Of a stretch of DNA of 46,036 bases, positions 11,947 to 34,631 are shown one piece after another. A program made the position numbers and the translations under genes. Every line of letters starts with the position of its first letter. Position 1 is the first letter of the stretch. The notes below the pieces were generated by a model. The model was not told the origin of the DNA. It was given only the letters and a program-made list of their open reading frames with translations, and ran no database searches. The DNA lies in the NCBI RefSeq assembly GCF_001999765.1, contig NZ_MTIC01000032.1, positions 1 to 46,036 on the forward strand, given 5' to 3'. This DNA comes from Sinomonas mesophila. GTDB taxonomy: Bacteria > Actinomycetota > Actinomycetes > Actinomycetales > Micrococcaceae.

Positions 11947-11984
11947 CAGCAGGCTCTCGGCGGCACAGCAGGCTCTCGGCGGCA
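11947..11984. repeat. Two tandem 19-bp repeats
   Basis: CAGCAGGCTCTCGGCGGCA occurs at 11947-11965 and 11966-11984, with a third partial start (CAGCAGG) that runs into the hairpin at 11983-12012. Located between the ROK repressor stop and the NAD(P)-binding gene. Confidence 0.7.
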
Positions 11985-12012
11985 CAGCAGGCGCTGCCGC
12001 GGGCCTGCTGTG
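11983..12012 (-). terminator. Hairpin downstream of the ROK repressor gene
   Basis: CACAGCAGGC (11983-11992) pairs perfectly with GCCTGCTGTG (12003-12012) across a 10-base loop, 40 bases past the repressor stop. No T-run follows, which is common for terminators in high-GC genomes. Because the repeat arms recur, alternative pairings exist. Confidence 0.45.
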
Positions 12013-12052
12013 CCGGGACAGGCCTGTCATGTCGCCGAGGGCCTGCCAGGCC

Positions 12053-13264: not shown

Positions 13265-13283
13265 GGTCCCTCCCTCAGGCCTG

Positions 13284-13313
13284 TTGACCACATCACAGTA
13301 CGGCCCCTATAGT
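13284..13313 (+). promoter_or_regulatory. Promoter of the xyl operon
   Basis: TTGACC (13284-13289), 18-base spacer, TATAGT (13308-13313): a good housekeeping promoter. Transcription would start near 13320 and give a leader of about 60 bases containing the operator candidate. Confidence 0.65.
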
Positions 13314-13325
13314 CCTCATATAGTT

Positions 13326-13345
13326 CAGAATCCATACTAATTCTG
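13326..13345. promoter_or_regulatory. Candidate XylR operator
   Basis: CAGAAT (13326-13331) and ATTCTG (13340-13345) form an inverted repeat with an 8-base AT-rich spacer, right after the predicted xyl transcription start. Position and AT-richness fit a repressor site; the ROK protein encoded next door is the likely ligand. Confidence 0.6.
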
Positions 13346-13379
13346 GATCCGCCCGGAACACTAGCCCAACGAGGTGCAC

Positions 13380-14582
13380 ATGACTTCCCAGACCCCCACT
13401 TCGGCCCCTTCTTCCTCGGACAAGTTCACCTTCGGCCTCTGGACCGTCGGCTGGACCGGCAACGACCCCTTCGGTGTCCCGACCCGCGCGGCCCTCGACC
13501 CCGTCGAGGCCGTGCACAGGCTCTCCGAGTTCGGCGCCTACGGCATCACGTTCCACGACAACGACCTCGTGCCCTTCGGCACCCCGGCCAACGAGCGCGA
13601 GCTCATCCTCAAGCGCTTCCGCTCCGCCCTCGAGGAGACGGGCCTCAAGGTCCCGATGGTCACGACCAACCTCTTCAGCCACCCAGTCTTCAAGGACGGC
13701 GGCTTCACCTCGAACGACCGCTCGGTGCGCCGCTTCGCCCTCAGCAAGGTCCTGCGCACCATCGACCACGCGGCCGAGCTCGGCGCCGAGACGTTCGTCA
13801 TGTGGGGCGGGCGCGAGGGCAGCGAGTACGACGGCTCGAAGGACCTCAACGCCGCGCTCGACCGCTACCGCGAGGGCGTCGACACCGCCGCCGCGTACAT
13901 CAAGGAGAAGGGCTACGGCCTGCGCATCGCGCTCGAGCCCAAGCCCAACGAGCCGCGCGGCGACATCCTCCTGCCGACCGTGGGCCACGGCCTCGCGTTC
14001 ATCGCCGAGCTCGAGCACGGCGACATCGTGGGCCTCAACCCCGAGACGGGCCACGAGCAGATGGCGGGCCTGAACTTCACCCACGGCATTGCCCAGGCCC
14101 TGTGGGCCGGCAAGCTCTTCCACATCGACCTCAACGGCCAGCGCGGCATCAAGTACGACCAGGACCTCGTGTTCGGCCACGGCGATCTCACGAGCGCCTT
14201 CTTCACCGTGGACCTCCTCGAGAACGGCTTCCCGAACGGCGGCCCGCGCTACGAGGGCCCCCGCCACTTCGACTACAAGCCCTCCCGTACAGACGGGTAC
14301 GACGGCGTGTGGGAGTCTGCGAGGGCCAACATGCGCATGTACCTCTTGCTCAAGGACCGCGCCGCCGCGTTCCGCGCCGACGCCGAGGTCCAGGAGGCGC
14401 TCGCCGCCTCGGGCGTGGGCGAGCTCGCCGAGCCGACGCTCGCCGCGGGGGAGACGACGGCGGACCTGCTCGCCGATGCCTCGGCCTTCGAGGCGTTCGA
14501 CGCCGACCGGGCCGCCGAGCGCTCGTACGCCTTCATCCGCCTCAACCAGCTCGCGATCGAGCACCTGCTCGGGGCCCGCTGA
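13380..14582 (+). CDS. xylA: Xylose isomerase
   Basis: Converts D-xylose to D-xylulose in the cytoplasm, using two divalent metals. The 400-aa protein is of the short actinobacterial class. Catalytic residues are in place: TFHDND (H59, D62) and [11 protein letters not shown] (E186, K188), with [19 protein letters not shown] and [11 protein letters not shown] forming further metal and substrate sites. ATG 13380 has GAGG five bases upstream; GTG 13374 is less likely. First gene of the xyl operon, followed by xylB 65 bases later. Confidence 0.97.
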
Positions 14583-19416: not shown

Positions 19417-19658
19417 CGTGGACATCCCTCAGCCTAGGGCTCAGCGCCGTCCAGAGGACAGGGGGGACGGCGGTGATGCACGCGTCGGAGCGTGGAGGCG
19501 GCCCGCGACGCTCAGCCGCCCTGCGGCCCCGTCGCCAGGCGGCGGCGAGAGTTTGCCAGGTGCGTGCACATCGTCGCAGCCGCGGCGAGCGGGTCCCGCG
19601 CGGCGACCGCGCGGCAACCGCGGCGAGAATTGTCGGAGCCCTGTGATGGAGTGGGGTC

Positions 19659-21506
19659 ATGGAGGAGCTCCGGGGGGTGGCGGACGACGGCGGGTTGCAG
19701 CCGTCGTCCGTGCCGCCCGGGCCCGTCCCGCTGCCGATCGGGGAGCCCGAGCAATGGCTCGGGAATCCGGGGCTGGCATTCGAGGACCCAGGGCCGTGGT
19801 TTGAGGATCCAGAGCTGTTCCCCGACGAAGCGGAGGCGTGGGACGGCAGGGACTATCCCGCCTATCTCGACGACCCCGCCGCCGATCCGGGCCGCGCCGA
19901 CTACGAGTGCAGAGACTGGGAGGCCGACGAGGACGACGCCGGGGGCCCCGTGATCCTCCACCCCGTCGCGGTCGCCGACCGCAACCGACAGCGTTCCATC
20001 GAAGCACTGATGGCGGGCCTGGCCGGCGTCGACGCCGCCGAGGCCGAGCTGCACGCGCTGCGGGTCCTCATGGTCCGCGGGGTCGCGAGCCTCCTTGGGG
20101 CGGACGCGCCCGATGTGCTCGAGCGCTCCCGGGCCCAGTCGCTCACGGCGGCCGAGATCGCCGCCGAACGCTCCCTGCCCCCGAGGGCGGCGAGGGCGCT
20201 CGTTGCCGAGTCGCTGGCTCTGACGGCGCCCGAGGCCAGGCCGGTGCTGGCCGCGCTGCAGGAGGGCCGGCTCGACCGGCCCCGCGCGCAGACCATCCTT
20301 CGCGCCGCCGCCCCCATCCCTTCCGACGCTGTGGAGGAGTTTCTCGAGCGCGCCGTCGCGGTGGCCGCCCCGGCCAGCGATCCGGCCCAGCACGCAGCCC
20401 AAGGCCCGGAGCGTCCGTCCGTGCCGGCCCTCTCGAGGGCGCTGCGGCGCATGGCCGAGGAGCACAGCGCCCAGACCCTCACGACCAGGGCACGGCAGGC
20501 CCGGGAGCAGCGCCGGGTCGACCTCGAGCCCGGCGACGACGGCATGTGCCACCTCTACGCCTACCTCCCGCTCGAGGCCGGCGCCGCCATCGACGCCCGC
20601 CTCCAGGCCGCCGCTCGAGCCCAGGCATCCCCGGAGGACCCCCGCACCACAGCCCAGCGCCGTGCCGACGCCCTCACCGACATCCTCCTCGCCCCAACCG
20701 GCGGCGCCCCGGCCGGCGGCTCCCCCGCCCGCGGCGGAGTCCGCATGGAGATCGTCGTGACCGTCCCCGCCACGACACTCGTCCCCCAGCTGCTCCCGGC
20801 CCCAGCTGATCGCCGGGCCGGTGGGCCGCGCTTGGCCAGGGACGCGGGGGCGGACTCGGAACCGGACGACGAATCCGTAGCGTGCCCGGCCGACGGCCCT
20901 GGCGACGGCCCTGCCGAGAGCCATGCCGACGTCCCGTCCGACGGCCCTGCCCATGACGCCGCCGCCGAACTCGCCGCGGCGGGCCTGGCCTTCGGCGACG
21001 CCCCCGGCGAGATCCTCGGCTACGGACCGATCGACGCGGCCACCGCGCGCCGCCTGGCCGCCCAGGCCGACACCTGGCTGCGGATCCTCACCGACCCGCA
21101 GACCGGGGCCCCACTCGCCCTCGGACGCACTCGCTACACCCCGCCCCCGGCGCTGCGGCGCTTCCTCGCCGCCCGGGACACCGGATGCCGCTTCCCCGCC
21201 TGCGACCGCACCCACCCGCACACCGAAGCCGACCACACCCACGAATGGTCCCGCGGCGGCACTACCGACACCACCAACCTCGCCCTCCTCTGCTCCGAGC
21301 ACCATCGGATCAAGACCTTGGGCTACTGGACGGCGAGCCAGCCCCGGGGCGACGGGACGATCGTCTGGACCTCACCCCTCGGCCGCACCCACATCACGTC
21401 ACCAGGCCCGCCCCGCCCGCCCGAAAGACCTCCCTACGGCCCACTCGGCAGCCCATCCAAGAGCCCACCGCCCAGCACACCCGGGCAAGAACCACCACCG
21501 TTCTGA
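19659..21506 (+). CDS. DUF222 protein with C-terminal HNH nuclease domain
   Basis: A 615-aa actinobacterial DUF222/13E12-type protein. A long helical, Ala/Arg-rich DUF222 region (about 90-340) is followed by a low-complexity linker (about 345-430) and an HNH domain (about 505-552) with TGCRFPACDR, ADHTHEWSRGGTT, TNLALLCSEHH: the two zinc-cysteine pairs and the catalytic His are present, so nuclease activity is plausible. Such genes are multicopy in these genomes and linked to mobile DNA; the natural role is unknown. GGAG lies upstream of ATG 19659. Confidence 0.9.
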   Translation: MEELRGVADDGGLQPSSVPPGPVPLPIGEPEQWLGNPGLAFEDPGPWFEDPELFPDEAEAWDGRDYPAYLDDPAADPGRADYECRDWEADEDDAGGPVILHPVAVADRNRQRSIEALMAGLAGVDAAEAELHALRVLMVRGVASLLGADAPDVLERSRAQSLTAAEIAAERSLPPRAARALVAESLALTAPEARPVLAALQEGRLDRPRAQTILRAAAPIPSDAVEEFLERAVAVAAPASDPAQHAAQGPERPSVPALSRALRRMAEEHSAQTLTTRARQAREQRRVDLEPGDDGMCHLYAYLPLEAGAAIDARLQAAARAQASPEDPRTTAQRRADALTDILLAPTGGAPAGGSPARGGVRMEIVVTVPATTLVPQLLPAPADRRAGGPRLARDAGADSEPDDESVACPADGPGDGPAESHADVPSDGPAHDAAAELAAAGLAFGDAPGEILGYGPIDAATARRLAAQADTWLRILTDPQTGAPLALGRTRYTPPPALRRFLAARDTGCRFPACDRTHPHTEADHTHEWSRGGTTDTTNLALLCSEHHRIKTLGYWTASQPRGDGTIVWTSPLGRTHITSPGPPRPPERPPYGPLGSPSKSPPPSTPGQEPPPF

Positions 21507-22237: not shown

Positions 22238-22663
22238 ATGGGCACCGCCGAGCTGAGGGCCGAGGCGCCGAAGAGCGCGTACGAAGGCTCGTGCAAGGGC
22301 AATGACAGCCATGGCAAGGCCATCCGTGAAGTCCTTGACCGCATCGGCGACAAGTGGTCACTGCTCGTGATCGGCACGCTCATGGACGGCAAGCTCCGCT
22401 TCACCGAGCTGCAGCACCACATACCGGGCATCTCCCAGCGGATGCTCACCCTCACGCTGCGGCAGCTCGAACGGGACGGGCTCATCGAACGGACCGTCCA
22501 CGCAGAGGTGCCCCCGCGGGTGGAGTACGAGCTCACGGAGGTGGGCCAAACCCTCATCGAGCCGTCCCTGGCCCTGGCGAGCTGGGCCATCGCCAACTAC
22601 CCGAGCATCGAGGAATCGCGGATTCGCTACGACGAAGCTGGCCCAAGGCGCTCAACGAGCTGA
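22238..22663 (+). CDS. HxlR-family transcriptional regulator
   Basis: A 141-aa winged helix-turn-helix protein of the HxlR (DUF24) family. The DNA-binding region runs IREVLDRIGDKWSLLVIGTL, MDGKLRFTELQHHIPGISQRMLTLTLRQLERDGLIERTV, followed by the wing (PPRVEYELTEVGQTL). A cysteine near residue 18 (GSCKG) is at the place used by redox/electrophile-sensing members. ATG 22238 has GGGAG six bases upstream; an upstream in-frame ATG at 22160 is possible but adds unconserved residues. Its end overlaps the convergent glycosyltransferase gene by 37 bases. Confidence 0.9.
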   Translation: MGTAELRAEAPKSAYEGSCKGNDSHGKAIREVLDRIGDKWSLLVIGTLMDGKLRFTELQHHIPGISQRMLTLTLRQLERDGLIERTVHAEVPPRVEYELTEVGQTLIEPSLALASWAIANYPSIEESRIRYDEAGPRRSTS

Positions 22664-24111
22664 CGGGTGCGGCGTCGACGGACTGCCGTGGCCAGGATCA
22701 CGGCCGCAGCGACTGCCATGGCGACGCGGCTCACTGCGGGACCGGCATCCGTTCCCGCTATTGCCGTCACCGCCTGGAGAGCGAGCGGCACGATGAGGAA
22801 CTCCTGCCGGCGGCCCAGCACCGCGAGCGGGATGAGCATGAGTGAGTACCACGCATAGCTCGGGCACGTGATGATGAGCGTCCAGCCGACGGCGATCGTC
22901 TGCGCGGCGGCGGGCGACATGGTGTTCCGGCGCACCCACACCCAGACCCACACGGCGAGGACCGCGGCGAGGCCGACGACGAGCGCCGCGGGCGGTGGCA
23001 GCACCGTCCCGGGGAGGGCAAAGCGGGTCGCGTCGCCGGAGGTGTACCCTTCCTCCGACAGATAGCCGGGCAGGTATCCGATGACGGCCGGCCCGGACAC
23101 CGCAACGTAGGGGACATAGGCGACGAGGACGGCAAGGCTGGCCCCCGCGATGACATGCCACGGTCTGTTGCGCAGCATGCCGGGCAGGGCAGCAACGGGG
23201 ATAAGCTTGGTCGCCACCGCGAGACCGAAAAGCACGCCTGACGCGACTGCCCTCCGCACCGACAGGATGCTGGTTCCGAGCAGGATGCTGGCTCCGAGGA
23301 GGAGGGCGGCCGAGAGCACGTCGACGTGCGCGTTGTTGACGGCCTCGAGCAGCACGAGCGGGTTCCACGCCCAGAGCGCCGCCCACGACAGGGGCCTCCC
23401 TTCGTGCCGCATCGCCTGAAGGTGCATGAGGGCAACGACGACGGCGAGGGCCAGCCCCGCCGTCTGGAAGGCGAGCCACGCCGCGCTCGAGGGCAGCGGG
23501 AGCCGGACCAGCAGGAAGTACACCTCCGCCACCGGCGGATACGCCGTGGGGACGTGGGGGCGGTTGATCGCTGTGCACAGCGGGGTTCCGCTCGGCACCG
23601 AGGTGGTCACGACGTCGCCGGTGGGAAAGTGGGGCGAGCCAGCGTCGCACTCGGCTGCGAACAGCCAGGAGGGACGCAGGTCCGCGAGTGCGTCAGCGGC
23701 CGGGACGTCCCGATACGGCGAGATTCCGGCCTTCTGCACGATGCCGTCCCAGGCGTAGCGGGCGGAGTCGTTGCTCGTCGACGGCGGTGCAGCGAGGGCT
23801 GCGGCCCCGGCTCCGAGAAGGCCCAGGACGACGGCGAGAGTCACCCAGCGCTTCGAGGCCCCCCGCCGTTCGGCGAGGCGGAGCACGAGCCAGGCACCCG
23901 CCGCGGCCGCCCAGCACGCGGCCGTTCCGGCGAGGACGTGCGCCCGCCCGCCGTCGCGCTCGACGACCGTCCACGCGACGGCGGCGGCGAAGACCGCGAG
24001 AGCCAGAGCGAGCCCGACGGCGAGGGCGCCGGGACGGAGCGCGCGCGCAGCCAATGCCCGTCGCAGGGCGCGCCCGAGCGCAGGGGAAGCCACGGTTCCA
24101 CTGTGCCCCAC
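22627..24111 (-). CDS. GT87/DUF2029-type membrane mannosyltransferase
   Basis: Polytopic membrane protein of 494 aa, with about ten to twelve hydrophobic helices, like the polyprenol-phosphate-dependent alpha-mannosyltransferases of actinobacterial lipoglycan synthesis (GT-C fold). After the first helices an acidic-loop segment (NDSARYAWDGIVQKAGISPYRDVP) matches the conserved first extracytoplasmic loop with its catalytic Asp; AYPPVAEVYF, NPLVLLEAVNNAHVDVLSAALLL and TKLIPV are family landmarks. GTG 24111 is chosen because GAGGGG lies 6 bases upstream; a GTG at 24183 has no good ribosome site. Divergent from the molybdopterin fusion gene. Confidence 0.85.
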   Translation of the reverse strand: MGHSGTVASPALGRALRRALAARALRPGALAVGLALALAVFAAAVAWTVVERDGGRAHVLAGTAACWAAAAGAWLVLRLAERRGASKRWVTLAVVLGLLGAGAAALAAPPSTSNDSARYAWDGIVQKAGISPYRDVPAADALADLRPSWLFAAECDAGSPHFPTGDVVTTSVPSGTPLCTAINRPHVPTAYPPVAEVYFLLVRLPLPSSAAWLAFQTAGLALAVVVALMHLQAMRHEGRPLSWAALWAWNPLVLLEAVNNAHVDVLSAALLLGASILLGTSILSVRRAVASGVLFGLAVATKLIPVAALPGMLRNRPWHVIAGASLAVLVAYVPYVAVSGPAVIGYLPGYLSEEGYTSGDATRFALPGTVLPPPAALVVGLAAVLAVWVWVWVRRNTMSPAAAQTIAVGWTLIITCPSYAWYSLMLIPLAVLGRRQEFLIVPLALQAVTAIAGTDAGPAVSRVAMAVAAAVILATAVRRRRTRQLVERLGPASS

Positions 24112-24204
24112 GGCGGACCCCTCGTGGCCTGTCCAGCCCGGCCCGTTCCCATTCCGTAAGGTCTGGGCAGCCGGTCCGGACACCGACGGTGCTGTCCTAG
24201 AACC

Positions 24205-25419
24205 ATGGATCGGGATAGCAGCCGAGCCGGCGGTCGGATCGCCGCGGCCGTGTCAGCAAGGCTCCTTGACGCGGTGCACTCCCCGGCCCGCGGAACGAGG
24301 CTCTCGGTCGTGATCGGCCGGTGGCTCGCTCTGACGTTCGCGCTGTGCCTCGTGACGGGCTTCTACTCGCATCTGCTCCAGGACCCTTCGACGTGGGCCG
24401 GCGTCACGTTCTCCCGTCCGGTCTGGCTCTACGGCCTGACGCAGACGGTGCACATCGTCGCGGGAACGGTCAGCATTCCGCTCCTGCTGGGGAAGCTGTG
24501 GGCCGTATACCCGGAACTCCTGCGATGGCCTCCGGTCACGTCGATCCTGCATGCGCTCGAGCGGGCGAGCATTGCGGTTCTCGTCTCGGCCTCGCTCGTC
24601 GAGGTCGCGACTGGGGTCATCAACACCTTCGAGTGGTACCCGTGGCCGTTCCCGTTCCGTGAGACGCACCTCGCCCTCGCGTGGGTGATCCTGGGCTCGC
24701 TCCTCATCCACGTCGCGGTCAAGTACCCCAGGATCGCGGCGCACTGGCGGCGGAGCCGGCCCGCGGGCACCGCAGACCCAGCCGGGCCCGCCCCCGAGGA
24801 CACCCACGACGCCGGCCGATCGCGCCGGCGAGTCCTGGCCCTTGTCGCCGCCGGCGCCGTGGCCGCCTTCGTGGGCACGGCGAGCCAGAACGTCCCGGCC
24901 GTGCGGGACCTTGCGGTGTTCACTCCGCGACGGCCCGGCCGCGGAACGCAGGGCCTCGCGGTGAACCGCACGGCGGAAGCGGCGGGGGTCGCCGTGCCAG
25001 CGGGCGCGCCGGAGTGGCGGCTGCGCGTCGTCGTCGGCGATCGGGTCTCGGAGTTCGGCCTCGCCGACCTCGCCGCCCTGCCGCAGGCCGAGCACTCGCT
25101 CCCCATCGCCTGCGTCGAAGGCTGGGTCCAGGACGCCAGATGGGGCGGAGTGCCCCTCACCGCCCTCCTCGAGGCGGCCGGGGCCAGCGCGGGGGACGTC
25201 GTCGTCGAGAGCCTCGAGCGATCGGGGAACTACCGCATGAGCATCCTGCCCCAGCACTTCGCGTGGGACCCGCTCACGCTCGTCGCCCTCCGCCTGGAAG
25301 GCGAGCCGCTGAGCCTCGACCACGGCTTCCCGGCGCGGCTCATCGCACCGGGCCGTCCCGGCGTCCTCCAGACCAAATGGCTCGCCGAGCTGCGCGTGAT
25401 CACAGGAGGGCGGGGATGA
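24205..25419 (+). CDS. Cytochrome b-like membrane domain fused to molybdopterin oxidoreductase domain
   Basis: A 404-aa fusion. Residues 36-174 form four membrane helices with histidines suited to bind haem (H56, H83, H116, H155, H169), like cytochrome b561/YedZ. After a linker, SRRRVLALVAAGAVAAFVG (206-224) is a fifth helix headed by a twin-arginine-like motif. Residues 265-404 are a sulfite-oxidase/MsrP-type Moco domain with PIACVEGW, C303 being the expected Mo ligand. Electrons would pass between quinone, haem and a Moco site outside the membrane. Dual Sec/Tat insertion is known for actinobacterial proteins of this layout. The substrate is unknown. Confidence 0.88.
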   Translation: MDRDSSRAGGRIAAAVSARLLDAVHSPARGTRLSVVIGRWLALTFALCLVTGFYSHLLQDPSTWAGVTFSRPVWLYGLTQTVHIVAGTVSIPLLLGKLWAVYPELLRWPPVTSILHALERASIAVLVSASLVEVATGVINTFEWYPWPFPFRETHLALAWVILGSLLIHVAVKYPRIAAHWRRSRPAGTADPAGPAPEDTHDAGRSRRRVLALVAAGAVAAFVGTASQNVPAVRDLAVFTPRRPGRGTQGLAVNRTAEAAGVAVPAGAPEWRLRVVVGDRVSEFGLADLAALPQAEHSLPIACVEGWVQDARWGGVPLTALLEAAGASAGDVVVESLERSGNYRMSILPQHFAWDPLTLVALRLEGEPLSLDHGFPARLIAPGRPGVLQTKWLAELRVITGGRG

Positions 25420-25628
25420 GAATCGCCGTCGTCGCCGTCGGGGCCGCCCTGACAGGGGTGGGCATCGTCCTCCTGGCCGGCATGCTGACCACGCCGCAGC
25501 TCCTGGGACTCGGAGCGTGGCTGGCCGCCGCCGTCCTCCTCCACGACGGCGTGTGGATGCCTCTGGTCACGGCGGCCGCGCGGGCCGGCAGCTGGGGTCG
25601 GCGGACGCCGCACCGCAGGACCCGTTGA
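25416..25628 (+). CDS. Small two-helix membrane protein
   Basis: A 70-aa protein with two hydrophobic helices (about 4-24 and 28-50) and a basic C-terminus (RAGSWGRRTPHRRTR). GGAGGG precedes its ATG, which overlaps the stop of the molybdopterin fusion (ATGA), so it is translated with it and may be an accessory subunit. No family is recognised. Ends 8 bases before the convergent methyltransferase stop. Confidence 0.72.
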   Translation: MRIAVVAVGAALTGVGIVLLAGMLTTPQLLGLGAWLAAAVLLHDGVWMPLVTAAARAGSWGRRTPHRRTR

Positions 25629-25636
25629 CGCGGCGC

Positions 25637-26347
25637 TCAGCGGCGCCTGAGCTGGCAGAACACGCGCCCCTCGAGGGCACGCGTGGCGAGGGTGTCCCAG
25701 CCGCACGCGTCGGCGAGGGCCGGCAGCACCTCCCACCCGACTGACGCCCAGGGGAAGTCGCGGCTTTCGCGACCCCAGGCATCGCGCAGGCGCGCCGTGA
25801 AGCGCCGATTTGTCCACGGCTGCGCCGCGGTCTCGACCCACGCCCGTCCGCCCGGCGCTGTGAGATCCCGGATCCTGTGGAGCAGGCTCATGGGCTCGCC
25901 GCCGATCCCGATGTTGCCGTCGAACAGGAGCGCGCTTCCCCATCCCTCGCCGGGGCGGCCGCTCGCGCGGAGCGAGGCCGCGGCGTCGAACACGGAGCAG
26001 TGGATGGCCTCGCCGCCGCCTTTCCGGGTGAGTCGCACGGCCTCCGGATCGACGTCGATCCCCACGGCGTCGAGCCCGAGGGCACGTGCGGTGGCCACGA
26101 GCCGCCCGGGCCCGCACCCGATGTCCAGAACGGGCCCCCGCAGCTCGGCCACGAGCGAGCGCTCCCCCGCCGTGACGCGGAACCACGCGCCGACGTCGAA
26201 CCGGGCCTGGACCGTGCCCTGCCCGGGCCCGTCCGTCACGAGGTGGAGGGTTCCGCGGCCGCGACGCAGGGCCCGCGCGTACGGGGAGCTGCCGCCGCGC
26301 CCGAACGACGAGGCGGCAGTGCCAGCCTGAGCCGCAGTGACGGTCAC
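25637..26347 (-). CDS. Class I SAM-dependent methyltransferase
   Basis: A 236-aa methyltransferase. PVLDIGCGPGRLVATARALG (72-91) is the SAM-binding motif I, GLDAVGIDVDPEAV carries the acidic motif II residue, and LTAPGGRAWVETA is motif post-III. The first 50 residues (FGRGGSSPYARALRRG) are atypical and may bind the acceptor. Start GTG 26347 has GGAGG upstream and overlaps the glycosyltransferase stop by four bases (GTGA), so the two are co-translated. The acceptor is unknown; the context suggests a sugar, lipid or sugar-linked metabolite. Confidence 0.86.
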   Translation of the reverse strand: MTVTAAQAGTAASSFGRGGSSPYARALRRGRGTLHLVTDGPGQGTVQARFDVGAWFRVTAGERSLVAELRGPVLDIGCGPGRLVATARALGLDAVGIDVDPEAVRLTRKGGGEAIHCSVFDAAASLRASGRPGEGWGSALLFDGNIGIGGEPMSLLHRIRDLTAPGGRAWVETAAQPWTNRRFTARLRDAWGRESRDFPWASVGWEVLPALADACGWDTLATRALEGRVFCQLRRR

Positions 26348-27741
26348 GATGATGCCTCCGTCGGGTCAGGCACACTGCGGGGCATCGCATTGAGAGCGCG
26401 GCCGACGGCGGCCGCGAAGTCGGTCTCTGGGATGGCCGCGGCGACGGCTTCGGCGTCCGTGGCCGTGTCGACGTCGCGCAGCGTCGGGAGCTCTCCGACG
26501 GTGAGGCCCGCGCGGCGGAGGCGGTTGAACTGCCGCCGGCCGGTGTCGGGCCGGGACATGGGTACACCGCGGATGAGCCGACCGTCGGGGCGGGCGAGGG
26601 CGAGAGCCCAGAAGCCGCCGTCGTCCGCGGGGCCGAACCATGCGTCCCGCCCCTGCCACTCGTCGAAGAGCGGGGCAAGGTGCGCCCGCGTGAGCTGGGG
26701 CGTGTCCATGCCGAGGATGAGGAGGGGCCCGTCGATGGCGTCGCAGAGGGCGGCGAGCCGGGAGTCGAGGCCGCCGGAGGGCTGGGCGAGGACGTCGAAC
26801 TCCGTCGAAGAACGGGAGGCGGCGGCGCGCGGATCTCCGTCGAAGAACAGGACGCGGCGGCGGGCCTGCAGGGAGCGGACGACGTCGAGGGTCGCCTCGA
26901 GGCTCGACGCCGCCACGAGCGCGGCGTCCTCGGGCGAGAACGGCGGGCACAGGCGGGTCTTGACGCGTCCGGGGACACATTCTTTGGCGACCACGGCGAT
27001 GGTCAGCCCGGATGCGGCAGCCCGCGGCGCGCCGTCGTCCGCTGGCCTTCCGAGCCGCGGGCGGCGTTCGGCGAGGAGCGCAGCCATGTCTCGGACGGCG
27101 GTCACGGTGCCCCGCACGGTTCCCGTGACCTTGGAGCGGCCCACGCGGGGCACATAGCGGACCGGGACCTCGGCGATGAGCCAGCCCGCCTCGGCGGCCC
27201 TGAGCACCATTTCGAGGGGGTAGCCGCTGCGCCGATCGCGCAGACCGAGGCCCCGGAGCGCGTCGGTGCGGGCCACCCGCAAGGGGCCCAGGTCGGTCAG
27301 CGGCACGCGGGATCCGTGCCTCAGCGCCGCGGATCGCACCACAGCGGCCAAGGCCGCGTTCGCGAGCCGCGCGTGCACGGGCCACGCTCCGCGATCAGGC
27401 CGGCGGGCCCCGAGCACGAGGTCGGCCTCGCCGTCCTCGAGCGCGCTCAGAAGGCGAGGGAGGTCGGCCGGATCAAGGGAGCCGTCCGCGTCGCACACCG
27501 CGGCGAATGGGGCGGAGGCCCGCTCGAGTCCCGCGTGGACCGCGGCGCCGAAACCGCGGCGCGGTTCGACGACAACTGTCGCGCCGAGTTCCGCGGCGAC
27601 CTCCCCGGACCCATCGGACGAGCCGTTGTCGACCACGATCGCCCGCCATCCCGCGGGGACACGCCCCAGGACCCACGGAAGCGCCTCCCGTTCGTCCAAG
27701 CACGGGAAGACGACATCGGCACGGATCGAGTCCACACCCAT
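26344..27741 (-). CDS. Glycosyltransferase family 2 fused to DUF2064 domain
   Basis: A 465-aa two-domain protein. Residues 8-235 are a GT2/GT-A domain, with ADVVFPCLDEREALPWVL, IVVDNGSSDGSGEVA and VCDADGSLDPADLP (the DxD-like metal site), like dolichol-phosphate glucose/mannose synthases. Residues about 245-450 are a DUF2064 (TIGR04282-type) nucleotidyl/glycosyl-transferase-like domain: IAVVAKECVPGRVKTRLCPPF, LLILGMDTPQL and WFGPADDGGFWALALA. One chain could thus activate and transfer a sugar. First gene of a minus-strand pair with the methyltransferase; divergent from the response regulator. Confidence 0.87.
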   Translation of the reverse strand: MGVDSIRADVVFPCLDEREALPWVLGRVPAGWRAIVVDNGSSDGSGEVAAELGATVVVEPRRGFGAAVHAGLERASAPFAAVCDADGSLDPADLPRLLSALEDGEADLVLGARRPDRGAWPVHARLANAALAAVVRSAALRHGSRVPLTDLGPLRVARTDALRGLGLRDRRSGYPLEMVLRAAEAGWLIAEVPVRYVPRVGRSKVTGTVRGTVTAVRDMAALLAERRPRLGRPADDGAPRAAASGLTIAVVAKECVPGRVKTRLCPPFSPEDAALVAASSLEATLDVVRSLQARRRVLFFDGDPRAAASRSSTEFDVLAQPSGGLDSRLAALCDAIDGPLLILGMDTPQLTRAHLAPLFDEWQGRDAWFGPADDGGFWALALARPDGRLIRGVPMSRPDTGRRQFNRLRRAGLTVGELPTLRDVDTATDAEAVAAAIPETDFAAAVGRALNAMPRSVPDPTEASS

Positions 27742-27845
27742 GACGCTAGGACCGAAGTCCGCCCTGTGCGCCCGGATAACCTTACGGAACGCGGAACGAT
27801 GCCCGCAGACGGCTCCAGCCAGGCGCCGTGGCCCGGGGAAGGGCC

Positions 27846-27851
27846 TATTCT
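27846..27851 (+). promoter_or_regulatory. -10 box of a probable leaderless transcript
   Basis: TATTCT lies exactly six bases before GTG 27858, so transcription would begin at or next to the start codon. No clear -35 is seen. Confidence 0.45.
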
Positions 27852-27857
27852 GCGAGG

Positions 27858-28589
27858 GTGAGCGCAGACCGACTCCGCACGCCGGCGCCGGCGTTGGGCA
27901 ACCGGAGGGTTCTCGTCGTCGAAGACGAGCTGACCTTGAGCGACGTCGTGCGGGGGTACCTCGTGCAGGCCGGATTCCAGGTGGATGTCGCCCACGACGC
28001 CTTCACCGCGATCCATCTTGCCGCGACGCGCGAGCCCGACCTCATCCTCATGGACCGCATGATCCCGGGCCTCGACGGCGCCGAGGTGTGCCGACGGCTG
28101 CGGGCCACGACGGATGTCCCTCTCATCATGCTCACCGCCTTGGGCACCGAGGAGGACCGGATCACGGGGCTCGAGGCCGGCGCCGACGACTACATCACGA
28201 AGCCCTTTTCCCCGCGCGAGCTCGTCCTCCGGGTCGAGTCCGTGCTGCGGAGGAGCCTCAAGGACTTCGACCCCGAACCGTCCGTTGAGGGCGGCGGGAT
28301 CTGGCTTGACCCCGGATCGCGTACAGCGACGCTGCGGGGCCGGCCGCTCGCGCTCACCCTCCGGGAGTTCGATCTGCTCGCGTTCTTCCTGCGGCATCCG
28401 GGCCAGGCATTCAGCCGCGAGGAGCTCATCAAGGCCGTGTGGGGCTGGTCCTTCGGGGATCTCTCGACCGTGACTGTCCACGTCCGCAGGCTCCGCGAGA
28501 AGATCGAGGCGGATCCCAGGCATCCACGACTCCTCGCGACCGTGTGGGGTGTGGGATACCGTTTCGACGGACTCGAAGGGCGCCCCTGA
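27858..28589 (+). CDS. OmpR-type response regulator
   Basis: A 243-aa two-component regulator. Receiver domain residues: E22/D23 acidic pair, D66 phospho-acceptor (LILMDRMIPGLDG), T93 and K115 (ITKPFSP). The C-terminal winged helix runs from about 150 to 240, with LTLREFDLLAFFLRHPGQAFSREEL, STVTVHVRRLREKIE and VWGVGYRF. GTG 27858 directly follows a -10-like box; GTG 27828 is an alternative that adds ten residues. The sensor kinase starts one base before its stop. It may control the surrounding glycosyl/methyl-transfer genes, most of which point away from the same region. Confidence 0.94.
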   Translation: MSADRLRTPAPALGNRRVLVVEDELTLSDVVRGYLVQAGFQVDVAHDAFTAIHLAATREPDLILMDRMIPGLDGAEVCRRLRATTDVPLIMLTALGTEEDRITGLEAGADDYITKPFSPRELVLRVESVLRRSLKDFDPEPSVEGGGIWLDPGSRTATLRGRPLALTLREFDLLAFFLRHPGQAFSREELIKAVWGWSFGDLSTVTVHVRRLREKIEADPRHPRLLATVWGVGYRFDGLEGRP

Positions 28590-30007
28590 TGCAGGCACAG
28601 GCCCTCCTCGGCATCCTCGGCTGGCTGCTCGTCTGGGCGCTCGGGATCACCGCACTGAGCATCGGGCTCCAGCGGCTCGCCCGGCGGGCGCCCTTCTGGA
28701 TCCAGCTCGTCATCGTCGTCGCGGCGACGGTCGCAGTGTTCGTCGCCGGAATCGTCAATGCCTTGGAGGCGATGGCGATCGCCGAAAGCGACCTCCTGGC
28801 GCTGTGGGTGATCCTCTCCGCGGCGGGCGCCGTGGCGACCGCGATGTCGCTTTTCCTCGGCCTTCGCCTCTCGCGCTCGACGTCGAGGCTCATCGCCGAC
28901 GCCGCAAGGATCGGCCGCGGCGAAGTCCTCGCCGAAGGAGGGCCACAGGCTGCGAGTCCCGTCGGAAGCGCCGAACTCGCTGCCCTCGCGGACGAACTCG
29001 CCCGGACGAGCCGCAGGCTCGAGGAGTCGCGGGCCCGCGAGGCGGCCATAGAATCGGCCCGGCGCGAGCTCGTCGCGTGGATCTCCCACGACCTGCGGAC
29101 CCCGCTTGCGGCCGTGCGGGCCATGGCGGAGGCCCTCGAGGACGGCGTGGCCACCGACGCCGCCGACTACCACCGGCGCATGATCGCCGAGACCGACCAC
29201 ATGGCCCTCCTGGTCAACGACCTCCTCGAGCTGTCAACGCTCGAAGCCGGGACCCTGACGCTGCGGGCGGAACCGCTCGAGCTCTACGATCTCGCGAGCG
29301 ACGTCATGGCCGAGCTCGCACCGCTCGCGGCGCAGCGGGGAATCGCCCTGGCCGGCGGCGAGTCGTCGGGGTCGCGGGTCCTGGCCGATGCGCGGACGGT
29401 AAGCAGGGCCCTGCGGAACGTGGTGCTCAACGCCATCATGTACAGCGTCGAGGGAGGCGTGGTCACGGTCGGCTTCGGGGAAAGCCGTGTGTGGGTCCAG
29501 GACTCCTGCGGAGGCATTCCGGACGAAGACCTGCCACACCTCTTCACCCCGGGCTGGCGCAAGTCGGCCTCGCGGGGCAAATCAGCGACGACTGGGGCGG
29601 GCACATCGCTCTACGCCGGTGCAGGCGTGGGGCTCAGCGTCGTCGCGGGCATCCTCCGGGCCCATGACGGTCACGTCACGGTGGAGAACTGCGACGGCGG
29701 CTGCCGCTTCACCCTCGCCTTCCCGGCCGAGGCCGGCGGTGACCAGGGGACGGGCGACGCCGGTCCCCAGATCTCAGAGGCCCGCGGCGAGGCCGCGCAT
29801 CCCATCGTCGAAGGCGATGTGCGGACGCCAGCCGAGCTCGGCGGCGATCGCGGCCGAGCTGGCGACGATGTGGCGGACGTCCCCGGGACGATATCGGCCG
29901 GTGACGACCGGAGCCAGGGCGCCGGGCCGGCAGGCGAGGGCTTCGGCCACGTCGAGGATGGTCTGCACCGAGGGCCCGCCGACGTTAAAGGTGCGGAAGG
30001 ACCCTGA
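28589..30007 (+). CDS. Sensor histidine kinase with antisense C-terminal extension
   Basis: Membrane histidine kinase, 472 aa. Three N-terminal helices (about 5-29, 39-59, 70-92) have almost no extracellular loop, so it probably senses within the membrane or through a partner. A HAMP-like stretch (93-145), dimerisation helix with WISHDLRTP (H167), N box (N281), DSCGGIPDEDLPHLF (D305) and the G box GAGVGL (344-349) are intact. Normal kinases end near residue 380-395 (FTLAFPAEAGG). The last 77 or so residues, Gly/Asp/Ala-rich, are encoded antisense to the convergent epimerase gene (234-base overlap) and are probably a run-on tail. Start overlaps the regulator stop by one base. Confidence 0.9.
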   Translation: MQAQALLGILGWLLVWALGITALSIGLQRLARRAPFWIQLVIVVAATVAVFVAGIVNALEAMAIAESDLLALWVILSAAGAVATAMSLFLGLRLSRSTSRLIADAARIGRGEVLAEGGPQAASPVGSAELAALADELARTSRRLEESRAREAAIESARRELVAWISHDLRTPLAAVRAMAEALEDGVATDAADYHRRMIAETDHMALLVNDLLELSTLEAGTLTLRAEPLELYDLASDVMAELAPLAAQRGIALAGGESSGSRVLADARTVSRALRNVVLNAIMYSVEGGVVTVGFGESRVWVQDSCGGIPDEDLPHLFTPGWRKSASRGKSATTGAGTSLYAGAGVGLSVVAGILRAHDGHVTVENCDGGCRFTLAFPAEAGGDQGTGDAGPQISEARGEAAHPIVEGDVRTPAELGGDRGRAGDDVADVPGTISAGDDRSQGAGPAGEGFGHVEDGLHRGPADVKGAEGP

Positions 30008-30826
30008 ACTCGAGCTGTCCCCGGCCTTCCCGGCGACAGCTCCGGCCGCCAGCACTGTTGCCGCTGCGACGTCTTCAACGTGCACGAAGCTCCGCCGCTG
30101 CCGGCCGTCCTCGAACACCTGCGGCGCCTCGCCCCGCGCCACGGCCGACGCGAACAGGGCAGCCACCCCCGCATAGGGAGTGTTCCGCGGCATGCCCGGG
30201 CCGTACACGTTGTGGTACCTGAGCGCGATGGCGGTTCCCTCCGTCCCGCGCGCCCACGCCGCGGCGAGATGTTCCTGCGCGAGCTTGCTCAGTGCGTAGA
30301 CGCTGCGCGGATCCGTGGGAGCGTCTTCGGAGGTGCGCGCCGGGAGGAGGATGGCGCCGTCGTCCGGGTCGCGGGGGTCGAAAAGCCCCGCGGCGAGATC
30401 GGCCTCCCGTCGCGGCGCGGGGCGAACGCTCCGCCCCGACCCGGGGTGGACGTACGACCCGTCGCCGTAGACGACCATCGACGAGGCCAGGACGAGCCCC
30501 CGCACCCGGTGGCGGGCGAGCGCCGACACAAGCTCGGCAGTGGCGAGGACATTGGCGCTCGCGTACGACGGCGCGTCCGCGATGCCCTGCTCAAGGCCAA
30601 CCTTCGCTGCGAGATGGCAGACGACGTCGGCGCCTGGCAGGACCGCGTCGAGCACCTCCGGCGTGGCGACGTCTCCGCGCACATAGTCTGCACCGTCGAC
30701 CGTTGGGCCAGCCCCCTCCCGGCGGGCCGCCGCGTCGAGCACGCGGACATCCCAGCCTGCCGTGAGCGCAGTGCGCACGACCGCCGAGCCGATGAATCCG
30801 GCGCCGCCAGTGACGAGGAGCCTCAT
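29774..30826 (-). CDS. NAD-dependent sugar epimerase/dehydratase
   Basis: Extended short-chain dehydrogenase, 350 aa. LLVTGGAGFIGSAVV (3-17) binds NAD; LVLASSMVVYGDGSY and SVYALSKLAQE hold the Ser and Tyr-x-x-x-Lys catalytic residues; RYHNVYGPGMP, RSFVHVEDVA and the C-terminal GDVRHIVASSAAIAAELGW are typical of UDP-glucose 4-epimerase-like enzymes. It probably makes a nucleotide-sugar for the nearby glycosyltransferases. ATG 30826 overlaps the stop of the MTA phosphorylase gene by four bases (ATGA). Its well-conserved C-terminus shows that this gene, not the kinase tail, owns 29774-30007. Confidence 0.92.
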   Translation of the reverse strand: MRLLVTGGAGFIGSAVVRTALTAGWDVRVLDAAARREGAGPTVDGADYVRGDVATPEVLDAVLPGADVVCHLAAKVGLEQGIADAPSYASANVLATAELVSALARHRVRGLVLASSMVVYGDGSYVHPGSGRSVRPAPRREADLAAGLFDPRDPDDGAILLPARTSEDAPTDPRSVYALSKLAQEHLAAAWARGTEGTAIALRYHNVYGPGMPRNTPYAGVAALFASAVARGEAPQVFEDGRQRRSFVHVEDVAAATVLAAGAVAGKAGDSSSSGSFRTFNVGGPSVQTILDVAEALACRPGALAPVVTGRYRPGDVRHIVASSAAIAAELGWRPHIAFDDGMRGLAAGL

Positions 30827-31710
30827 CCTCCAACCCCCGCCGGGACGTTCGCGGACGGCACGCTGGCGGCCATGAGGATGTGGACGGCTTCCTTGGGAAG
30901 GAGCGCCCTGGGCTCGTAATCGGCTGGGACGCGCTCCGCTGCGGCCGTGAGGACGCGCTCGAAGACCTTGCCCGCCGCGGCGAGACGGTCCCACACCACG
31001 TCCGCAGTCACCGCCTCGGCGGCGTCGACGCCGGCATCGGAGTCGGTCACGAACGCGAGGGTCGCGTAGCCGAGCCCCAGCTCTGCGGCGAGAACCGCCT
31101 CGGGGTACTGGGTCATTCCGACCACGTGGGCGCCGGCCTGAGCGAACCACCGAGACTCGGCCCTGGTCGAGAAACGAGGGCCGTTGATGACCGCCATCGT
31201 CGCCGACGCGACACAGGGCATGCGGGCCTCGTCCACGGCGTCCGAGAGGATTCCCCTCAGCGTCGGACAATACGGATCAGCGGCAGTGAGGTGCTGGACC
31301 CCGGCTGCGGCGCCCGGGCCCTGCCCGTCGAAGAACGTGTCCCTGCGACCCCACGTCCGGTCGATGAACTGATCCGGGATCACGAACGTCCCGGGCGCGA
31401 GCTCGGGGACGAGGGCCCCGCACGCGGCGGACGCGAACACCGCGGACACGCCGAGGTGTTTGAGCGCCCAGAGATTGGCGCGGTAGTTGACGGCCTGGGG
31501 GGCCACCGTGTGGCCTCGGCCGTGGCGCGGAAGAAACGCGATCGTGGTGCCCCGAACGGCGACGAGGGAGATCGGTCCCGACGTTGGGCCGTAGGGGGTT
31601 CGGACCTCGACCTCCTCCGCGCGTCCATCGATGCGGTACAGGCCAGACCCTCCCACAATCGCGATGCTCGTCCCGGGCCGGCCCCTCTCCAGATCCTTCA
31701 CAGCTCTCAC
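30823..31710 (-). CDS. 5'-methylthioadenosine phosphorylase-like protein
   Basis: Purine nucleoside phosphorylase family 2, about 295 aa. IAIVGGSGLY is the first phosphate loop, FLPRHGRGH, NYRANLWALKHLGV, GMTQYPEAVLAAELGLGYATLAFVTDSDAG the substrate region. The MTQYPE and TDSDAG signatures differ a little from the human type (MTTVPE, TDYDCW), so MTA or methylthioinosine specificity is open. It would recycle MTA left by polyamine or other aminopropyl/acyl transfer. Start is uncertain: GTG 31710, 31701 and 31752 are all possible and none has a strong ribosome site. Co-translated with the epimerase. Confidence 0.88.
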   Translation of the reverse strand: MRAVKDLERGRPGTSIAIVGGSGLYRIDGRAEEVEVRTPYGPTSGPISLVAVRGTTIAFLPRHGRGHTVAPQAVNYRANLWALKHLGVSAVFASAACGALVPELAPGTFVIPDQFIDRTWGRRDTFFDGQGPGAAAGVQHLTAADPYCPTLRGILSDAVDEARMPCVASATMAVINGPRFSTRAESRWFAQAGAHVVGMTQYPEAVLAAELGLGYATLAFVTDSDAGVDAAEAVTADVVWDRLAAAGKVFERVLTAAAERVPADYEPRALLPKEAVHILMAASVPSANVPAGVGG

Positions 31711-31804
31711 GTACCCATCGTGCCCGCGTGCGCCGGGCTCAGGGTCGTGCACGCCTTACGATTCCGTGACGGCGCGCGTACGTTGGGGCCCAAGGGAGGT
31801 TGCC

Positions 31805-33275: not shown

Positions 33276-33338
33276 GTACCCGGAAGCCGAAAAGAGCGTC
33301 GAGATATGTACCCGGAAGCCCGAAAGGGCGTCGCCATG
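33276..33338. repeat. Tandem 32-bp REP-like units
   Basis: Two near-identical units beginning GTACCCGGAAGCC at 33276 and 33308, with GCGTCG near the end of each. They share the GTACCC core with the palindrome at 17.4 kb. Confidence 0.65.
33297..33314 (+). repeat. 18-bp direct repeat, left of IS
   Basis: CGTCGAGATATGTACCCG, identical to 34666-34683 on the other side of the IS30 element. It lies 33 bp outside the left terminal repeat, so it is too far out and too long for an IS30 target duplication and is more likely a dispersed extragenic motif. Confidence 0.8.
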
Positions 33339-33347
33339 CTCAATCCA

Positions 33348-33367
33348 TCAAGTGCAATCTTTTGGGG
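33348..33367 (+). repeat. IS30 left inverted repeat
   Basis: Left end of the element; 18 of 20 bases match the right end inverted. Confidence 0.82.
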
Positions 33368-33377
33368 ATTGGGTGGG

Positions 33378-34631
33378 GTGGGGCTGGTGGGCGGGCGTCC
33401 GCGGATTGGGGATGAGGTCTGGGAACGGTTCGACGGGTTCCTGAACTCGGGGAGGTCGTTCACGGCCTCGGCCAGAGCTGTCGGAGTGTCGCGCCACGCG
33501 GCGTACGAGCGCTGGAAGAGGATCGGCGGCGTGAGGATGCTCCACGGCCCCGGTGGGGGCCTGCCCGTGCTGCCGCCGACCGTGCCGATCCCGGCCCCCG
33601 AGCCGGAGGCCGCGGCGCCGCCCGGCGGCGGCACCGGGTCGGGCAGGGTCTCGTTCTACGAGCGCTGCCTGATCCAGGCGTTCCTGGAAGAGGGCCGGAC
33701 CCAGAGGTGGATCGCCGGGCGGCTGGGACGCTCGCCCCAGGTGCTGTGCCGCGAGATCGGGCGCAACCGGCGTGCCGATGGTGTCTACGATGCCGTCACG
33801 GCCGAGTTCCTCGCCGCCGAGCGGCGCCGCCGGCCCCGGCCGGGCAAGCTCGCCGCCTGCCCGCGGCTGGCCGCCGCTGTCGAGGAGCACCTCGACCAGG
33901 GCTGGAGCCCGCAGCTGATCTCCCAGGTCCTGAGGCAGGACAACCCGGATGATAGGACCATGCAGGTCAGCCACGAGACCGTCTACCAGGCCCTCTATGT
34001 CCAGTCCCGCGGCGTCCTGCGCCAGGACCTCCACCAGCGCCTGAGCCTGAAGCGCCGCGACCGGGTCTCCCGGGGCAGGGCCGCAGACCGCAACCGCCCC
34101 TATGGGGAGGCCCTGACCATCAGCCAGCGCCCGCCCACCGTCGAGGACCGGGCCGTGCCCGGGCACTGGGAAGGGGACCTGATCATCGGCGGCGACGGGG
34201 CAAGCGCGATCGGAACCCTGGTCGAGCGGAGCACCCGCTTCGTGATCCTGCTGCACCTGCCCGGCGGCCGGCACACCGCCGACGTCGTCGCCGACGCCAT
34301 GATCGAGGCCATGGGCCAGCTGCCCGCGCACCTGCGCCGCTCGATCACCTGGGACCGGGGCAGCGAGATGGCCGACTACGCCCGGATCATGCTCGAGCTC
34401 CAGGCCCCGGTCTACTTCGCCGACCCCCACTCGCCCTGGCAGCGCGGGTCCAACGAGAACACCAACCGGCTCCTGCGCTTCTGGTTCGAAAAGGGCAGCA
34501 ACCTCTCAGGCCACACCGCCGAAGACCTCCGCCGGGTCCAGGACCTCCTCAACAAGAGGCCCCGGCCCACCCTCGGACTCCGCACCCCCGCCCAGGCACT
34601 CACCGAGCTCCTCCTGCCCGACGCCGCCTGA
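33378..34631 (+). CDS. IS30-family transposase
   Basis: DDE transposase. An N-terminal helix-turn-helix region (GRSFTASARAVGVSRHAAYERWKR) and a second one (EEGRTQRWIAGRLGRSPQVLCREIGRN) precede the catalytic core: GHWEGDLIIG (first D), TWDRGSEMADY (second D) and HSPWQRGSNENTNRLLRFW (E), all IS30 signatures. The frame is open from 33306, outside the element; the real start is probably a GTG or TTG inside the left end (GTG 33378, GTG 33387 or TTG 33369), giving about 417 aa. No stop or frameshift is seen, so it should be active. Confidence 0.9.
   Translation: MGLVGGRPRIGDEVWERFDGFLNSGRSFTASARAVGVSRHAAYERWKRIGGVRMLHGPGGGLPVLPPTVPIPAPEPEAAAPPGGGTGSGRVSFYERCLIQAFLEEGRTQRWIAGRLGRSPQVLCREIGRNRRADGVYDAVTAEFLAAERRRRPRPGKLAACPRLAAAVEEHLDQGWSPQLISQVLRQDNPDDRTMQVSHETVYQALYVQSRGVLRQDLHQRLSLKRRDRVSRGRAADRNRPYGEALTISQRPPTVEDRAVPGHWEGDLIIGGDGASAIGTLVERSTRFVILLHLPGGRHTADVVADAMIEAMGQLPAHLRRSITWDRGSEMADYARIMLELQAPVYFADPHSPWQRGSNENTNRLLRFWFEKGSNLSGHTAEDLRRVQDLLNKRPRPTLGLRTPAQALTELLLPDAA

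Follow-up and report, generated by a model that had tools for sequence, protein, structure and literature searches.

Methylthioxylose (MTX), a sulfur sugar of a mycobacterial glycan, serves as a target in tuberculosis tests, so that its taxonomic range matters for test specificity. In Mycobacterium tuberculosis, Rv0539 (MtxS) is reported to form the lipid donor MTX-P-C50 and Rv0541c (MtxT), described as a GT-C protein (PMC3229680), to transfer MTX, with 5'-methylthioadenosine (MTA) given as the first MTX donor in a 2024 paper on pentofuranose transfer, which calls MTX-type modification outside the assembly of lipoarabinomannan (LAM) unclear (PMC11127046). Equally, Sco3746 of Streptomyces coelicolor has been described as a protein with five transmembrane helices, the last of which follows a twin arginine, with three histidines that are conserved and with a molybdenum cofactor (Moco) domain, assembled by the Sec and the twin-arginine translocation (Tat) machineries; its authors name as distant homologues MsrP/MsrQ, which are separate proteins (PMC5449189). 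Here, a block of nine protein-coding genes at positions 22627-31752 of a 46,036-nucleotide stretch of DNA from Sinomonas mesophila (contig NZ_MTIC01000032.1; the whole stretch is called the window in the following) is compared with these systems. The block is probably an MTX-type locus, as judged from its sequence: a 5-deoxy-5-methylthio-pentofuranose, or a very close 5-thio-pentose, would be carried on polyprenyl phosphate and attached to a surface glycan under the control of a two-component system.

A gene set conserved across the phylum

The nine genes form five transcription units on both strands and not one operon. The gene families and their placement given in the first-pass annotation of this DNA were all confirmed by domain searches (Pfam and NCBIfam), and the overlaps of one to four bases that it had pointed out are real, with 4 bp between the genes for the cytochrome b-Moco protein and the small membrane protein, 4 bp between those for the GT2-DUF2064 fusion and the methyltransferase, 1 bp between regulator and kinase and 4 bp between S-methyl-5'-thioadenosine phosphorylase (MTAP) and epimerase. 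On the minus strand lie a membrane glycosyltransferase (GT) of GT-C type belonging to family GT87 (22627-24183; Pfam GT87 9.2e-11; the real start is probably 3' of the annotated GTG), a class I S-adenosylmethionine (SAM)-dependent methyltransferase with a DGNIGIGG-type motif (25637-26347; Methyltransf_23 1.3e-7), a fusion of an MtxS-type GT2 with DUF2064 (26344-27741; DUF2064 2e-21, Glycos_transf_2 2e-18), an NAD-dependent sugar epimerase (29774-30826; Epimerase 1.6e-43) and MTAP (30823-31752; PNP_UDP_1 4e-37, NCBIfam MTAP 2.6e-80; the real start is probably downstream). The plus strand carries the cytochrome b-Moco fusion with five transmembrane helices, an internal Tat-like motif and an extracytoplasmic Moco domain (24205-25419; Oxidored_molyb 1.2e-24), a small membrane protein without a Pfam match (25416-25628), an OmpR/PhoB-type response regulator (27828-28589; Response_reg and Trans_reg_C, both 9e-28) and a histidine kinase with a short membrane sensor (28589-30007; HisKA and HATPase_c), the homology of which stops near 29770.

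In a draw of 396 genomes from the phylum, the host's own included, a GT2-DUF2064 match at E ≤ 1e-25 occurs in 74 genomes, again counting the own one (GT2-positive genomes in the following). Matches to the Moco protein (E ≤ 1e-25) come from 43 genomes, those to the methyltransferase (E ≤ 1e-15) from 41 and both together from 38, and all 43 and all 41 lie inside the GT2-positive set (Fisher 9e-38 and 1e-35; as the genomes are related, Fisher and binomial values overstate significance). Within the window's class, Moco is matched in 22 of 23 GT2-positive versus none of 15 GT2-negative genomes and the methyltransferase in 23 of 23 versus none of 15. The epimerase (E ≤ 1e-45) is matched in 59 of the 74 GT2-positive genomes and the kinase (E ≤ 1e-35) in 57 of the 396, 42 of them GT2-positive, a looser association; these searches score few candidates per genome, and misses are possible. 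When the best match of each whole genome is taken, its distance from GT2 is at most 15 kb for the epimerase in 53 of 59 genomes, for Moco in 33 of 43, for the methyltransferase in 35 of 41, for a GT-C at the MtxT position in 39 of 45 and for GT87 in seven of seven.

Furthermore, 72 stretches were fetched from 71 of the 73 other GT2-positive genomes (G270 and G379 were left out and G171 gave two). At 60 bits they contain the epimerase in 56 cases, Moco, methyltransferase and regulator in 38 each, the kinase in 37 and MTAP in 21, where the regulator, kinase and epimerase counts may include paralogues. At least five of the six genes for GT2, Moco, methyltransferase, epimerase, regulator and kinase are kept in 31 of these stretches, from 12 families, and all-against-all clustering of the fetched loci together with the window returned the same families plus a GT-C of about 450 residues, absent from the window and found in 30 loci of 11 families. 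The sample includes a duplicate of at least one genome (G385/L057 and M. colombiense E1334/L124). A restriction of the neighbourhood to close relatives, which according to the first-pass annotation would have spoken against a common pathway, is not what is seen: the neighbourhood also occurs in named genomes of Mycobacterium, Micromonospora, Nocardia and Pseudonocardia, while the one further genome sampled from the same family (G008) and eight of nine sampled genomes of the same order are without a match to GT2, Moco and methyltransferase. The block is real and no local accident. The only other sampled genome of the order with the locus (G257, locus L098) has Moco in two frames, the second of which begins with the Tat-like SRRRFL.

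Small membrane proteins of similar look adjoin Moco in other loci. In four mycobacteria (G150, G377, G096 and G385), Moco and methyltransferase are located away from GT2; in three of them, a cassette of Moco, small membrane protein and methyltransferase is kept (L193, L194 and L195), and in the fourth the genes lie on two contigs. The GT2 locus of the L193-L195 genomes has no two-component system. One further genome (G128) holds a second, unlinked set of GT-C, Moco and methyltransferase (L203).

Named genomes were scanned with a mycobacterial GT2, and of its 580 relatives the best 80 were kept, with some stretches ending at contig ends. These 80 loci, 70 from Mycobacterium/Mycolicibacterium, seven from Micromonospora, one each from Nocardia and Pseudonocardia and one assigned to Actinomycetes only, contain GT-C in 78, epimerase in 68, MTAP in 60, kinase plus regulator in 46, methyltransferase in 45, Moco in 42 and GT87 in no case. 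Split by gene content, mycobacterial loci fall into a type one (for example M. szulgai and M. persicum), with MTAP, epimerase, two genes, GT2, DUF2064 and an opposite-strand GT-C, and a type two (for example M. frederiksbergense), in which this core is joined by a kinase/regulator pair divergent from GT2, the methyltransferase and mostly Moco, the latter being absent from the type-two stretch of M. vanbaalenii. The type-one layout is taken by us to match Rv0535 to Rv0541c of M. tuberculosis. The MTX pair Rv0539/Rv0541c fits this gene order; the core therefore corresponds to the described MTX route. The earlier view that the set belongs to no described pathway thus needs correction as regards the core. 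In the literature covered, which did not include the primary MTX paper, where relatives may be discussed, neither the additions of Moco, methyltransferase and two-component system nor an occurrence of the set outside mycobacteria was found described.

A proposed route from methylthioadenosine to a surface sugar

Built upon the directly observed gene content, families, conservation, co-occurrence, GT-C replacement and shared sites, a route of seven steps can be proposed. MTAP would cleave MTA into adenine and 5-methylthioribose-1-phosphate, the DUF2064 domain would act as a CofC-like nucleotidyltransferase to activate the sugar phosphate and the epimerase would invert one carbon from ribo to xylo, the latter two presumably in this order. 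Subsequently, the GT2 domain would load the sugar on polyprenyl phosphate, GT87 would pass it to an acceptor outside the cell and the Tat-exported cytochrome b-Moco protein would transfer quinol electrons to the sugar sulfoxide to restore the thioether, with the response regulator binding TKACRRAWCNNKGAC-type sites in front of three units, those of GT2, of the regulator and of MTAP-epimerase. For loading, transfer and the origin from MTA the scheme follows the mycobacterial literature; activation, epimerisation, reduction and regulation, as well as the product in the host, we infer. The suggestion of the first-pass annotation that one pathway for a lipid-linked sugar, with a link to MTA, is encoded here gains support from conservation, co-occurrence and the shared site.

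This link starts with MTAP, for which MTA phosphorylase models are the best matches, with scores just below two curated cut-offs (299.9 versus 306 and 269.2 versus 274.85 bits). In alignment with human MTAP it keeps T-D-x-D, and it is the sole match in the host genome at E ≤ 1e-25. A search for mtnA (TIGR00512) gave no match in the host genome, the assembly of which is 99.98% complete, so that the MTAP product is left without the standard salvage route and MTA would more probably be what the route starts from than a by-product awaiting salvage. This does not support the earlier idea that MTA salvage implies an aminopropyl- or SAM-derived side product. A 4 bp overlap of the MTAP stop with the epimerase start is present in the window, in G257 and in eight mycobacterial loci; among the best 80 of 580 named loci it recurs in 49 of 52 co-oriented pairs, all 49 mycobacterial, and the remaining three pairs, from Micromonospora, have MTAP at the far end of the locus, not adjacent to the epimerase.

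The next modules reside in the fusion protein. Among solved structures its GT2 half is nearest to dolichol-phosphate mannose synthase and its DUF2064 half matches a putative nucleotide-diphospho-sugar transferase; the latter half also fits models of CofC-type nucleotidyltransferases. The fusion was considered as a lineage mark and dropped since the two parts are separate genes in all 138 fetched loci that have both, adjacent in different frames in 133 and further apart in four; L095 was scored as fused by the script, yet its genes are reversed with stops between them. One of the two parts is missing from 14 fetched loci.

For the terminal transfer, GT87 (E ≤ 1e-12) is matched in seven of the 74 GT2-positive genomes, own included, always within 15 kb of GT2, with two of the seven matches (G205 and G362) weak and partial; the seven of 72 fetched stretches with GT87 are a different count, which includes L104 (61 bits) and omits the window, the former count including the window and omitting that genome. 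A GT-C at the MtxT position (alignment A2) is present in 45 of the 74 genomes, and neither transferase in 22. The two never occur together in the 74 genomes (chance of no overlap 9e-4), and a single genus (g9) with ten GT2-positive genomes has the GT-C in seven and GT87 in three. Because the two are mutually exclusive and GT87 is always found at the locus, GT87 most likely performs the same last step, as a predicted stand-in for the MtxT-type GT-C, perhaps with another acceptor.

The Moco protein has been analysed by alignment and modelling. In 32 aligned sequences Cys303, His155, His169 and the arginine pair at 207-208 are invariant, with His83 in 94%; the model, with a mean predicted local distance difference test (pLDDT) score of 81.7, has a SUOX-fold domain, with which the chain ends. 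Moco chemistry outside the membrane, as put forward in the first-pass annotation, is supported by conservation, co-occurrence and the shared site. The reaction cannot be read from the fold by itself, since sulfite oxidases, sulfite dehydrogenases and YedY score alike in one band of the fold search, and scores stay far from the equivalog cut-offs of sulfite dehydrogenases (SorA 33.0 of 600, SorT 21.4 of 570 and SoxC 44.5 of 420 bits) as well as of MsrP (26.5 of 207 bits). As the same locus would make a sulfur sugar, sulfoxide reduction is the simplest reading, and by analogy the protein most likely would reduce a sugar sulfoxide as MsrPQ reduces methionine sulfoxide. Quinol reduction of a sulfoxide is also the favourable direction. 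For this step only, it is possible, though we lean the other way, that the protein makes the sulfoxide, converting MTX to MTX sulfoxide (MSX), or acts on sulfite: ranked by E-value, sulfite oxidases and dehydrogenases come first among the solved structures, and one study reported abundant ions of MSX, a form that does exist in the M. tuberculosis glycan, from every LAM sample (PMC8531672). Reduction is favoured by a modelled chain that ends with the Moco domain like the shorter YedY/MsrP chains and by the description, in a review, of YedY-group enzymes as probably all reductases (PMC7759655).

The methyltransferase has no assigned step in the proposed pathway. Its nearest solved structure by profile and by fold is XhnM1 (fold E 2.3e-14), a likeness that does not reveal the substrate, followed by many generic class I folds including AzeJ with bound MTA (E 2e-9, 18% identity). 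AzeJ makes MTA from SAM, and the methyltransferase of the block may do likewise, a proposal for which the modelled likeness to AzeJ is too weak to give support.

Several observations weigh against an MTX-type product. The methyltransferase is linked as tightly as Moco, though MTX from MTA needs none, and in 31 of the 74 GT2-positive genomes no Moco protein reaches the threshold. MTAP, which also has a housekeeping role, lies within 15 kb of GT2 in 20 of the 62 genomes with a match and is unmatched in 12 of the 74; MtnA is over its cut-off in 15 of 44 searched genomes (14 of 43 genomes other than the host's and one more). Of the 57 genomes with a kinase match, 15 are without GT2, and only 31 have the kinase no further than 15 kb from GT2; an MtxT-type GT-C sought in the host at E ≤ 1e-10 was not found, with GT87 occupying its place. 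The assignment to Rv numbers rests on gene order, strand pattern and citing papers. One lineage (f18) combines GT2, DUF2064, MTAP and epimerase with radical SAM, DoxD-like and YfhO-like proteins and has no Moco match at the threshold, with a weak one in L101; as its gene content differs, related loci may make different sugars. In five loci of this lineage (L100, L102, L107, L108 and L110) the extra genes, which vary by locus, include a second methyltransferase, and ArsS is over its cut-off in no genome there.

Some of these observations can be read in terms of an ordinary hexose or unmodified pentose, lipid-linked through GT2, DUF2064 and epimerase, with MTAP as a housekeeping neighbour and Moco as a general MsrPQ-like envelope repair enzyme. 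The location of MTAP elsewhere in 42 of the 62 genomes with a match, the likeness of the GT2 domain to dolichol-phosphate mannose synthase and that of the Moco fusion to the MsrP/MsrQ repair pair agree with such a product, which we nevertheless regard as unlikely, since MTAP and epimerase are coupled in the window, in G257 and in mycobacteria, the host has no detected mtnA, an operator-like site precedes MTAP, the mycobacterial counterpart GT2 is reported to make MTX-P-C50 and Moco is confined to GT2-positive genomes, a restriction unneeded for a general repair enzyme. A different 5-modified pentose, derived from another 5'-deoxyadenosyl compound, as 5-deoxyribose would be from 5'-deoxyadenosine, and tailored by methyltransferase and Moco protein, would give the co-occurring methyltransferase a role that plain MTX leaves unexplained, and enzymes of the MTAP step are promiscuous in some organisms according to a review (PMC6302742); with the best models of MTAP being MTA-specific, though just above its score, and the counterpart locus reported to yield MTX, this product appears rather improbable. 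An arsenosugar-type pathway, suggested by the name of the NCBIfam model TIGR04282 (arsenosugar biosynthesis glycosyltransferase) that matches the DUF2064 part with 111.8 bits, under the cut-off of 134, was rejected as hardly credible, as ArsS (TIGR04167) is over its cut-off in none of the 74 GT2-positive genomes, own included (71 weak matches), and alignment A4 of the methyltransferase has a sole invariant cysteine, in GCGPGR, where ArsM has several conserved ones.

Candidate operator sites and genomic surroundings

The MTX-type reading includes a switch, and a recurrent site may be its target. A TKACRRAWCNNKGAC-like site is present in 46 of 56 GT2/regulator regions, that of the window among them (Markov control with a mean of 0.085 and a maximum of 2). 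In the window, the site between the GT2 and regulator genes (27782-27796, plus strand) is an exact TKACRRAWCNNKGAM, with one mismatch to TKACRRAWCNNKGAC, and a further operator-like site 5' of MTAP-epimerase (31756-31770, plus strand) is TTACGATTCCGTGAC, with one mismatch. The 46 kb hold four matches at up to one mismatch versus 0.97 expected, a number reached in one of 100 shuffles, and two of the four are outside the block. A weak site in the divergent region of GT87 and Moco (24145-24159, minus strand) has two mismatches to TKACRRAWCNNKGAC; with 11 two-mismatch sites found in the window versus 10.7 expected it is at chance level, and as an operator it is suggestive only.

Across 171 loci (3.0 Mb) 113 matches were counted, 61 before GT2/regulator, 23 before other cluster genes and 29 elsewhere. 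Since the pattern was derived from GT2/regulator regions, matches there are no independent test, unlike those in front of other genes, though descent connects many of the loci. Outside the discovery zone, 23 of 52 matches precede Moco, epimerase, MTAP, GT-C, GT87 or methyltransferase against an expectation of 7.1%; with 300 column-shuffled patterns, matches in these zones averaged 2.5 and did not exceed 16, compared to the 23 observed. One match is found between the GT-C and Moco genes of the unlinked set L203. With half-sites 11 bases apart, the pattern has a spacing typical of OmpR/PhoB-type regulators. This candidate site links the two-component region with the other cluster genes and might be bound by the regulator, in which case it would define a regulon.

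The regulator/kinase pair was first read as CutRS, a reading that was dropped as the defining kinase cysteines are missing. CutS of Streptomyces is described with two conserved extracellular cysteines (PMC12802291), and the window's pair resembles CutRS as a regulator with a membrane kinase; unlike CutS, however, the kinase of the window lacks this pair, its first 170 residues being free of cysteine, and no cysteine pair is shared by its relatives. An MFxSx(x)HD-like motif, present in 25 of 37 kinase relatives, is absent from the window kinase. Beyond its homology, the kinase frame continues stop-free for about 78 codons, antisense to the 3' end of the epimerase gene (29774-30007).

Just past the block, a gene with HTH_38 and rve integrase domains (33306-34631), which we take to be IS30-like, has a 47% relative inside the mycobacterial locus L050 at 6742-7773. 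Upstream lie a DUF222/HNH endonuclease gene (19659-21506, plus strand) with a long opposing frame (19512-21305) and, at 2435-14582, genes for sugar uptake and use, namely a LacI regulator, parts of an ATP-binding cassette (ABC) transporter, two xylose-isomerase-like proteins, ThuA and a ROK regulator, apparently without relation to the block. A search for RNA structure at 25560-25650 found none (z 0.55), and searches for sigma-70 promoters and terminators gave none and two, respectively, no more than in shuffles. Anti-phage defence was considered and set aside, as PADLOC gave no match for the four proteins tried.

Comparison with described systems

The comparable systems include the three-component pentofuranose systems of Gram-negative O antigens, which share with MTX a polyprenyl-phosphate pentofuranose donor and an extracytoplasmic GT-C, but start from phosphoribosyl pyrophosphate (PRPP), whereas MTX starts from MTA (PMC11127046). 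Compared by description, Sco3746 and the Moco protein of the window have in common a twin arginine before the last of five transmembrane helices, a Moco C-terminus and three conserved histidines; unlike Sco3746, known for its Sec/Tat assembly, the window's relative is tied to a sugar locus, which thereby offers a first candidate partner for heme-Moco proteins of this type. MsrP-type chains are told by the lack of a C-terminal dimerisation domain. The window protein shares with them the Moco cysteine (Cys303) and, in its model, a chain that would be without this domain. Likewise, MsrP/MsrQ (YedY/YedZ) combine a heme b membrane part fed by the respiratory chain with a Tat-exported Moco part (PMC5449189); on the other hand, the window protein is one fusion far under the MsrP cut-off, and its proposed substrate is a sugar sulfoxide, making it a candidate enzyme for the MTX/MSX redox pair of the mycobacterial glycan.

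Tentatively, these comparisons can be extended to a wider picture, in which a methylthio surface sugar under two-component control might serve across Actinobacteria, including those for which LAM is not known, as a renewable antioxidant, its thioether being oxidised to the sulfoxide by oxidants and re-reduced by the dedicated, quinol-driven and Tat-exported Moco enzyme; the MTX of tuberculosis would then be the reduced remnant of an older system, the locus of type-one mycobacteria having lost its switch and their Moco pair having been relocated. In practical terms, the locus points to culturable genera such as Micromonospora for a search for MTX-type sugars outside LAM assembly.

Closest is the MTX pathway itself. 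Mycobacterial loci share GT2 with adjacent DUF2064, GT-C, epimerase and MTAP, in line with MTA as the first donor and a polyprenyl-phosphate donor, and the MTAP and epimerase of the M. tuberculosis locus presumably serve MTX. The window has an MtxS-type GT2 with DUF2064, the GT2 being 52-57% identical to eight mycobacterial counterparts with the same neighbours, and the MTAP-epimerase coupling through the 4 bp overlap that is found in 49 mycobacterial pairs. It differs by the fusion of GT2 with DUF2064, by GT87 replacing the MtxT-type GT-C and by a host of another order, and it adds the methyltransferase, the cytochrome b-Moco protein, the small membrane protein and the two-component system. 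Altogether, the block resembles the mycobacterial MTX genes in a more complete form and apparently under a switch, and it recurs across the phylum, outside the group for which the sugar is known.

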